64,000 bases of DNA from Pengzhenrongella sicca. GTDB taxonomy: Bacteria > Actinomycetota > Actinomycetes > Actinomycetales > Cellulomonadaceae. The stretch is from the NCBI RefSeq assembly GCF_017569225.1, contig NZ_CP071868.1, positions 1 to 64,000 on the forward strand, given 5' to 3'. The number at the start of each line of letters is the position of its first letter. The stretch's first letter is position 1. Made by a program: the position numbers and the translations under genes. The notes beneath the pieces were generated by a model. The model worked only from the letters and a program-made list of their open reading frames with translations, did not search any database and was not told the origin of the DNA. Positions 37,405 through 56,106 of the stretch are shown in pieces.

Positions 37405-37427
37405 GCGGATCGGGTTCGAGAAAAGCC

Positions 37428-37456
37428 TTGGCGCCGCCGCCTTCACGTCGTACCGT
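37428..37456 (+). promoter_or_regulatory. Promoter of the map leader
   Basis: TTGGCG (37428-37433), an exact 17-base spacer and TACCGT (37451-37456) give a good housekeeping-type promoter. Transcription would start near 37463, a few bases before the strong ribosome-binding region of a micro-ORF and about 300 bases before map. Confidence 0.6.
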
Positions 37457-37486
37457 TCTCGCATCGAGGAAGGAGGTGGTCCCGAG

Positions 37487-37525
37487 GTGAATTTTCTTCG
37501 GACGCGAGAGGTGACTGTCCGCTAG
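37487..37525 (+). CDS. Twelve-codon leader peptide upstream of map
   Basis: GTG 37487 to TAG 37525 encodes MNFLRTREVTVR. It is preceded at 37467-37482 by AGGAAGGAGGTGGTCC. This matches the reverse complement of the 16S rRNA 3' end (AGAAAGGAGGTGATCC) at 14 of 16 positions, and both differences allow G-U pairing. Inside the ORF, CGGAC (37499-37503) can pair with GTCCG (37517-37521). A leader peptide whose translation senses something and controls downstream RNA folding is my inference. I do not recognise it from a characterised system. The antisense reading resembles short hypothetical proteins I believe are annotated in other actinobacteria, which would imply nucleotide conservation, but I could not verify this. 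Confidence 0.6.
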   Translation: MNFLRTREVTVR

Positions 37526-37614
37526 TCGCCGCGCCTGCTGATGTAGACGCATCGGACGGACTGTCCCGTCGTTCGCCAGGCCGCGTGCGGCCAGCGAGTT
37601 CCAGGCAGTCACCG

Positions 37615-37681
37615 CAGCCCGTGGGAGCCGCGATCTCGTCCATCGCGGCAGGGTTCCTCACCGAACCCGGCCCACGGGCTG
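37615..37681 (+). ncRNA. Three-way-junction RNA element in the map leader
   Basis: The outer helix pairs 37615-37625 with 37671-37681 (11 perfect pairs). Inside are two perfect hairpins: 37627-37634 with 37642-37649 (8 pairs, loop CUCGUCC) and 37651-37656 with 37663-37668 (6 pairs, loop CUCACC). Junction strands are only A, A and GG. All 25 pairs are Watson-Crick. It lies 89 bases after the micro-ORF and 79 bases before map. It does not match any riboswitch class I know. A further GC-rich hairpin-forming run (about 37690-37723) lies between it and map. The rest of the 37405-37760 gap holds nothing else I can assign. Confidence 0.6.
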
Positions 37682-37760
37682 TTCCCTGCCCGCCGGCCGG
37701 CCGGCCGCACGGCCGCGGCCCGGGAAGTGAGCGAGTCCTGGGAAGTGACAGAGTGCAGTC

Positions 37761-46168: not shown

Positions 46169-46410
46169 TGCGGATTTCCTACTTCACGTCGATCGGAACG
46201 GTTGAGGGATATCGCTCCACCCATCGACCGGGCTGCGCACGAAACCACCGGTCGCCGACGTGGTCCGGGTCACAGGCGCGGGAGCGGGCGGCGGACGACG
46301 CGCAGTCCGAGGCCTCCACCTGCGCGGTCGCGAACGGGGTACGGATCGGGCCGGAGAGCCCGTACGCTGGCTCCTGTTCCACAACCACATACGAATACGT
46401 GCTGCTCGAG

Positions 46411-46672
46411 CTGCGGCGGGAGAGTCCTCCCGCGCGTCGTCGGACGATCGCTCGCCGATCCCGACGGCATCGGCGAGGCGCCGAAGGAGCAACCCTCCCC
46501 GGGAATCTCTCAGGCCCCCGTACCGCCGTGGCAAGGCAACTCTGGAAAGCGGCCCCGCACCCAGCGCGGCCCACCGACGGTGCAAGCCGGCGCGCCCCGA
46601 GCCTCGACACGAGGCACTGGCGGACCGGCAAAACTCTCAGGTCGATGGCTGTGCGCCGTCCGATGACAGAGC
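46411..46672 (+). promoter_or_regulatory. Tandem glycine riboswitch
   Basis: Two glycine aptamers in series precede gcvP. Aptamer 1 shows GGGAGAGTCC (46418-46427), GCGCCGAAGGAGCAA (about 46478-46492) and ATCTCTCAGGC (about 46505-46515). Aptamer 2 shows ACTCTGGAAAG (about 46540), CCGACGGTGCAAGCC (about 46574-46588), AAACTCTCAGGT (46631-46642) and the typical end ATGACAGAG (46663-46671). The class is known to activate glycine cleavage genes when glycine is high. The 3' end lies about 55 bases before gcvP; no clear terminator is seen, so control of translation or premature termination is undecided. Confidence 0.92.
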
Positions 46673-55900: not shown

Positions 55901-55907
55901 GTCAACT

Positions 55908-55998
55908 CCATCGGTCCTGGCGGAAGCACCCACACCCTCGCACGCGAGGGGGGTTGCTGCGGCATCATCGAGCCAGGTCTCTCAGCCGCTCTGGATGG
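55908..55998 (-). promoter_or_regulatory. SAM riboswitch of the metF-metE operon
   Basis: On the minus strand the leader reads CCAUCCAGAGCGGCUGAG (55998-55981), then ACCUGGCUCGAUGAUGCCGC, GCAGCAACC, a GC hairpin, GGGUGCUUCC, and CCAGGACCGAUGG up to 55908. This is the S-box core. CCUGG can form the pseudoknot with CCAGG. The closing helix CCAUC/GAUGG includes two bases of the metF ribosome-binding site, so ligand binding should hide it. The subclass (SAM-I or SAM-IV like) is not certain. A -10-like TATGCT (56011-56006) would place the transcript start at the aptamer's first base. Confidence 0.9.
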
Positions 55999-56106
55999 TG
56001 TCGAGAGCATAGACCGGCGCAGAGGACCGCGATACCCCCGCGCCGCATCGTGGGACGGTGGCGCTCGCGACGCTGCCGCAGCGGGGGACGCAGGCGCGCG
56101 GCGCGA

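Follow-up and report, generated by a model that had tools for sequence, protein, structure and literature searches.

The three-way junction upstream of map in Pengzhenrongella sicca is the 3' domain of Ms_IGR-5, a conserved small RNA with a micro-ORF and a 5' end able to pair with the free 16S rRNA tail

In the window analysed here, a stretch of 64,000 nucleotides of Pengzhenrongella sicca DNA, a compact three-way-junction RNA lies upstream of the gene map and downstream of genes that, from reading their proteins, we take to encode isocitrate lyase and malate synthase. A search with Rfam 15 showed that this junction, at 37615-37681, is the 3' third of a larger RNA, since the family RF02471 (Ms_IGR-5, 'Actinobacteria sRNA') matches 37462-37687 on the forward strand over its entire model (1-184 of 184) with 72.3 bits, 27 bits above the gathering score of 45. 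This is the single match of the family in the whole P. sicca genome, and no other family and no riboswitch aptamer was found between 37380 and 37800 at E values up to 1, in agreement with the preliminary description, which saw no likeness to the riboswitch classes. That description had proposed a new cis-regulatory RNA or a small RNA. A conserved structured RNA and the option of a small RNA are borne out; the match to a named family, an outcome that the description itself had set against novelty, rules out a new RNA family or riboswitch, and the cis-regulatory part is not supported by the genomic setting described below. Elsewhere in the window, Rfam matched a glycine riboswitch aptamer (46407-46535, forward strand, 58 bits) and a SAM (S-box) riboswitch (55905-56001, reverse strand, 58.8 bits). 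A short direct repeat, GGGAAGTGA, is present at 37722-37750 just upstream of the map start, and no clear Shine-Dalgarno sequence for map was seen by eye. The features of the locus are collected in Table 1.

Table 1. Features of the Ms_IGR-5 locus in the window.
Feature	Positions	Strand	Details
Promoter-like region	37420-37456	+	A-tract 37421-37424; -35-like TTGGCG 37428-37433; 17-nt spacer; -10-like TACCGT 37451-37456
Extended Shine-Dalgarno AGGAAGGAGGUGGUCC	37467-37482	+	Can pair with all 16 nt of the 16S tail GGAUCACCUCCUUUCU, two G-U
Micro-ORF, GTG start, 12 codons, MNFLRTREVTVR	37487-37525	+	Stop TAG 37523-37525
Pseudoknot strand GGAC	37500-37503	+	ORF nt 14-17 (codons 5-6); pairs with GUCC 37638-37641 in L2
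Internal Shine-Dalgarno-like GAGGUG	37508-37513	+	Codons 8-9; 6 nt ahead of codon 12
P4, 5' strand, GGUGACUGUC	37510-37519	+	Codons 8-11; covariation
P4, 3' strand, GGCAGUCACC	37604-37613	+	Foot of the three-way junction; covariation
Three-way junction P1/P2/P3	37615-37681	+	Fold, covariation, RNAalifold
P1, 11 pairs	37615-37625 with 37671-37681		
P2, 8 pairs	37627-37634 with 37642-37649		
Loop L2 CUCGUCC	37635-37641	+	GUCC 37638-37641 is the pseudoknot partner
P3, 6 pairs	37651-37656 with 37663-37668		
Pyrimidine-rich tail after P1, terminator-like	37682-37691	+	Weak U enrichment (186 RNAs)

The stretch 37615-37681 folds exactly into the helices of 11, 8 and 6 pairs with four unpaired junction bases (1+1+2) that had been described, at -45.4 kcal/mol compared with -25.18 (sd 3.34) for 200 dinucleotide shuffles, none of which was as low (z -6.05). 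In a MAFFT alignment of 38 RNAs of the window's family, taken from the 42 in a set of 81 loci after four with a wrong or missing P1 were left out (L062, L118, L126 and L138), 92.5% of 975 cells pair, versus 39-45% when the partners are slid by 1-3 columns. Both sides have changed in at least one RNA at 16 of 26 junction pairs, giving 151 such cells; the compensatory changes whose lack would have spoken against the fold are thus present. The paired fraction, the both-sided changes and the covariation score were attained by none of 500 shuffles, and the number of pair types was attained by 117 of the 500. RNAalifold on the same alignment returned the same junction with 24 pairs, and conservation does not extend to the innermost, eighth pair of P2, which 30 of the 38 RNAs do not form. 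Folds of single sequences were kept out of the covariation evidence because pairing is built into them; they covered 80 of the 81 loci (L073 has no anchor) and gave two branches in 71 and none in nine, several of the nine being wrongly anchored. The covariation counts here and below ignore the relatedness of the RNAs. The junction covaries and is a real conserved structured RNA.

A broader set of 196 RNAs was placed by the anchors GGAGGTG and GAGGT, with one of 197, a reoriented locus, left unplaced; none was lost for want of anchors, and 14 that were unplaced at first lay on the other strand. P1 was assigned in 195 of the 196, doubtfully in six, in which another stem was taken as P1 and the L2 motif was therefore not found. 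Two hairpins lie inside P1 in 169 of the 195 and one hairpin in 24. The single-hairpin form, seen for example in L066, from a family whose high model scores make it look mycobacterial, resembles the Rfam structure line, which has one terminal hairpin, whereas the RNA of the window adds P3 to form the three-way junction; the 5' block and the position of P1 and P2 are the same in both. Since the two-hairpin form is common, P3 corrects the Rfam model rather than excluding membership in RF02471. The likeness between the two hairpin loops (CUCGUCC and CUCACC) to which the preliminary description drew attention looks like chance. L2 is conserved and L3 is not, with 31 different loops in 40 three-way-junction RNAs of the window's family, which rules out the similar loops as a paired signal.

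RF02471 matched at E <= 0.001 in 192 of 296 genomes of the class, 191 of them exceeding the cut-off, and in 135 of 150 genomes of the window's family (126 exceeding it). In the other classes of the phylum, a sequence pattern for the 5' half was found in 52 of 296 genomes, a few of them chance-like by eye, versus one for the reversed pattern, and two of nine such loci attained the RF02471 gathering score. Mycobacterium, Nocardia, Amycolatopsis, Micromonospora, Frankia, Nocardioides and Cellulomonas are among the matches listed for the 5' pattern. One genome (G085) has two RF02471 matches and the other genomes listed show one. The model matched none of 14 control genomes, Corynebacterium glutamicum included, and none of the 13 genomes listed for one family of the window's order (f5), in which a looser pattern matched 5 of 40 genomes, none with GGAY ahead of GAGGTG. 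Given these absences, Ms_IGR-5 is not universal, and f5 appears to be a natural loss to set against neighbours that retain the RNA. Eleven pattern matches in viral contigs were rejected as viral copies: none attained the Rfam gathering score, none had the stop codon in place, and they are traversed by reading frames 80 to 1119 codons long, so they were taken as chance.

The surroundings of the RNA, up to 4 kb in either direction, were viewed in the 81 loci. Homologues of map follow in 15 loci, starting 20-125 nt past the RNA, and these are 15 of the 42 loci of the window's family and 0 of the 39 outside it; among the 66 loci without map is one (L094) in which hardly any DNA is available beyond the RNA. 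In 45 of 80 loci the first gene predicted downstream is encoded on the opposite strand, and the neighbours, predicted by an ad hoc rule on ORF length and GC at third positions and not by a gene finder, differ between lineages. The name 'map leader' given earlier does not survive these counts, and no conserved association with map was found. The order of promoter, micro-ORF, junction, GC hairpin and map that had been read as a control region is present in the window; map and the GC hairpin (by eye) are not part of the conserved unit. Because map is rare downstream and the neighbours change, Ms_IGR-5 is best taken as a gene of its own, presumably also transcribed separately in P. sicca. Consistent transcripts come from two passages of the literature, in which Ms_IGR-5 is seen as a transcript in Streptomyces lividans (PMC8079986) and as an sRNA transcription unit in S. 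avermitilis (PMC8780764).

A strict sigma-70 scan gave no sites in the window, and the promoter rests on conservation: an A-tract, a TTG-type and a TAnnnT element occur at similar distances upstream in 81 loci aligned on GGAGGTG. Transcription would start near 37462, about 10 nt ahead of GGAGGTG. At the 3' end a strict terminator scan likewise gave no sites; the strong P1 is followed by the pyrimidine-rich tail, and in 186 RNAs the frequency of T is 0.41-0.58 at six of the first eight positions past P1 versus about 0.14 farther on.

The 16S rRNA of P. sicca, present in three copies, ends in the 3' tail GGATCACCTCCTTTCT. All 16 pairs with the 5' end of Ms_IGR-5 are possible, at -28.5 kcal/mol, and the next best run over all positions and both strands of the window is 11; the DNA beyond the tail reads AAGGAGCT, and by eye it has no complement in the RNA. 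The core 12-mer AAGGAGGTGRTC has four occurrences in the 4.4 Mb, one in the Ms_IGR-5 RNA and three on the antisense strand of the 16S ends. On the assumption that the relatives share the tail read in P. sicca, the unbroken pairing run is 16 nt in 170 of the 196 relatives, 15 in 23, 14 in two and 12 in one; misfits occur at the outermost base in 21 of the 196 and number six in all over the other 15 bases. Among the 16 positions, those opposite U vary between A and G, those opposite G between C and T, and those opposite C or A are fixed except for one cell. This substitution pattern matches what a retained duplex with the 16S tail would predict, with the reservation that transitions are common anyway and that GGAGGTG doubled as an anchor. 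The 5' end of Ms_IGR-5 can thus pair with the whole free 3' tail of 16S rRNA. A 16-base complement of the entire tail, kept across many families and found elsewhere only antisense to 16S (in one genome), is unusual and needs an explanation.

Downstream of this block, an ATG, GTG or TTG lies 10-13 nt past GGAGG in the frame of GAG GTG in 195 of the 196 RNAs, compared with 49 and 0 for the other two frames. An ORF length of 12 codons is found in 191 of the 196, and a stop follows 15 nt past GAG in 194 (TAG in 181, TGA in eight and TAA in five). Ten RNAs of other classes (L229-L238), found without using the stop, have it at the same place in all ten and a start in place in eight. By eye, the second Shine-Dalgarno sequence inside the ORF is a full GGAGGTG in six of these ten, and several of them have a separate terminator-looking hairpin farther downstream; an ATT start at the conserved spacing is apparent in L015, the one exception among the 196, and in the pattern matches of G675 and G685. 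The conserved start, the frame and the fixed place of the stop, at which different stop codons interchange, argue for a translated small ORF. Together with published ribosome footprints on its homologues, ORF conservation suggests that the micro-ORF is translated. Those footprints were reported on MS_IGR-5 in M. abscessus and M. smegmatis in a passage that also cautions against equating footprints on non-coding RNAs with translation (PMC4974804). Counted from the last codon, the peptide consensus is M-x3-R/W-T-R-E-V-A/T-A/V-R. GAGGTG is present in 196 of 196 RNAs and is constant even at its synonymous positions, which points to a constraint at the RNA level as well.

The micro-ORF is joined to the junction in two ways. 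Helix P4 pairs codons 8-11 with the foot of the junction, and in 189 of the 196 RNAs (the one without P1 and the six with a doubtful P1 left out) 1797 of 1890 cells of its ten pairs are paired. Whole-strand shuffles (500) gave a mean of 1653 with sd 7.8 and a maximum of 1679, and slid partners pair in 27-58%. The second connection is a pseudoknot between GGAC in the ORF and loop L2. Nine RNAs from three families have GGAU in place of GGAC; seven of them, from two families, have AUCC in L2, and two keep GUCC, with which a G-U pair is possible. AUCC occurs in none of the 185 GGAC RNAs, for six of which L2 was not found. The pairing was put to a prediction test on RNAs collected by a search with the 5' pattern: from 86 places, 52 loci were obtained, of which two chance matches (L387 and L400) and seven from genomes already used were set aside, and all 43 new GGAU RNAs, from two families, have AUCC in L2 (36 read by script and seven by eye, L381, L395, L396, L410, L423, L425 and L428). 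As 29 of these 43 come from one family and look closely related, they are not 43 independent events. GGGAC stands with GUCCC in five of the ten other-class RNAs (by eye), and in L140 AGAC with GUCC leaves one pair broken. Covariation thus supports a micro-ORF tied to the junction by P4 and by the L2 pseudoknot. The micro-ORF had been listed as a neighbour of the junction; it is there, and it is not a separate element, since the helix and the pseudoknot make it part of the same RNA. An alternative 5' hairpin between the UCC of the extended Shine-Dalgarno tail and GGAC is a further possibility, its core pairing being possible in nearly all 196 RNAs and its flanks pairing slightly above shuffles.

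The position of these elements suggests how the RNA might work. Given the footprint sizes of initiating 30S subunits and terminating ribosomes, GGAC would be covered when a 30S subunit initiates on the ORF, P4 would be opened by the passage of a translating ribosome, and codons 8-11 would lie under a terminating one. Because both GGAC and the P4 strand lie within the part of the ORF that ribosomes cover, the closed fold and translation should, on geometry, exclude each other. Through the full-tail duplex with 16S rRNA, Ms_IGR-5 may capture 30S subunits or ribosomes very tightly, and the pseudoknot and P4 fold together with the internal Shine-Dalgarno sequence could control whether these proceed, halt at the stop or remain trapped; a Shine-Dalgarno sequence 6 nt before codon 12 is spaced such that it could hold back a ribosome whose A site contains the stop codon. 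The RNA would then act as a translation-coupled switch or a ribosome trap and not as a leader for a downstream gene, and its candidate outputs are ribosome sequestration, the peptide or a released antisense surface. We give even chances to the reading of Ms_IGR-5 as a stand-alone RNA that engages ribosomes and in which 30S binding and ORF translation compete with the fold. Held more tentatively, and somewhat short of even chances, is the fuller proposal that Ms_IGR-5 is a ribosome-capture RNA, old in the phylum, in which whole-tail pairing, a second site pairing with the anti-Shine-Dalgarno sequence and a junction pseudoknot trap and release 30S or 70S particles; such an RNA would report on or limit translation capacity. 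A very strong Shine-Dalgarno sequence may also simply give strong initiation and no trapping. An output as peptide or antisense RNA fits the observations less directly than the holding of ribosomes.

Four other explanations were weighed against this ribosome-engaging reading. The best placed of them, although we think it unlikely, is that the RNA belongs to the WhiB7/WblC translation-stress regulon and is made when ribosomes are inhibited. The A-tract a few bases before the -35 element, with A in 67 of 81 loci at the best column, recalls WhiB7 promoters as a passage of PMC3905903 describes them. A similar layout precedes the whiB7 homologue with an AT-hook in P. sicca, where AT-rich TTTAAT stands 3 nt ahead of a -35-like TTGTGC (L377, G000:C1:682221-682367). 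However, the motif is weak and was viewed in the promoters of the RNA and of this whiB7 homologue; membership would moreover concern the regulatory input and not the mechanism, and is compatible with ribosome capture.

Slightly less probable is a dual-function mRNA whose product, acting alone, is the 12-aa peptide, the RNA structure merely tuning its synthesis. Frame, length and stop are conserved, the stop also in the ten RNAs of other classes. However, residues 2-4 of the peptide are free, and GAG GTG without synonymous variation in 196 RNAs points to a constraint on the RNA; selection on the RNA could by itself account for the invariant GAGGUG and GGAC, and the peptide sequence may be unimportant. 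Lower still, and improbable in our view, stands a trans-acting antisense sRNA in which L2 (UCGUCC) or another single-stranded part pairs with mRNAs and the ORF does no more than control exposure. The C-rich loops of 6C/B11 are comparable to L2 in this role, and the conservation of L2 and the stand-alone gene agree with it, but L2 is already accounted for by the pseudoknot with the RNA's own ORF. Finally, a cis-acting map leader or attenuator, in which translation of the micro-ORF would decide termination at the junction and hence map expression, draws on the 15 loci with map close downstream but is, on the synteny (15/81, 0/39 outside the family, 45/80 on the opposite strand), rejected as very improbable, the more so as P4 and the junction are adjacent and not mutually exclusive, so that the usual anti-terminator pairing is missing.

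The architecture connects Ms_IGR-5 to the ribosome in a specific way that is open to experiment, and it suggests that an RNA regarded as 'non-coding' has both a coding role and a pseudoknot; a consensus with the three-way junction, P4 and the pseudoknot should also serve better for finding and modelling the family. The literature passages found do not state a function for Ms_IGR-5. Among the matches listed on anti-Shine-Dalgarno pairing and dual-function sRNAs, no title or abstract describes this architecture, part of which the founding M. smegmatis paper may already describe, and the term 'IGR' is absent from a review of mycobacterial sRNAs (PMC4109619).

Compared with the Rfam entry, which is typed as an sRNA gene and has no ORF, the RNA described here adds P4 (codons 8-11 with GcAGuCACC) and the pseudoknot, both absent from the RF02471 structure line. 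The 6C/B11 and Ms1 sRNAs are, like Ms_IGR-5, stand-alone and widely conserved actinobacterial RNAs, and these families do not match the Ms_IGR-5 locus even at E up to 1. In 30S entrapment of the rpsO/S15 type, an mRNA pseudoknot near the ribosome binding site competes with or traps the initiating 30S subunit. Ms_IGR-5 likewise has a pseudoknot near the ribosome binding site; unlike rpsO/S15, it has no known regulator protein or ribosomal-protein gene, and its pseudoknot starts from within the ORF and connects it to a distal junction. In the extended Shine-Dalgarno initiation of Staphylococcus aureus, as an excerpt of PMC13009471 presents it, more of the 16S tail is likewise paired than the canonical Shine-Dalgarno core; there the pairing is on ordinary mRNAs, whereas in Ms_IGR-5 a small RNA with a 12-codon ORF offers a 16-base complement that spans the free tail completely.
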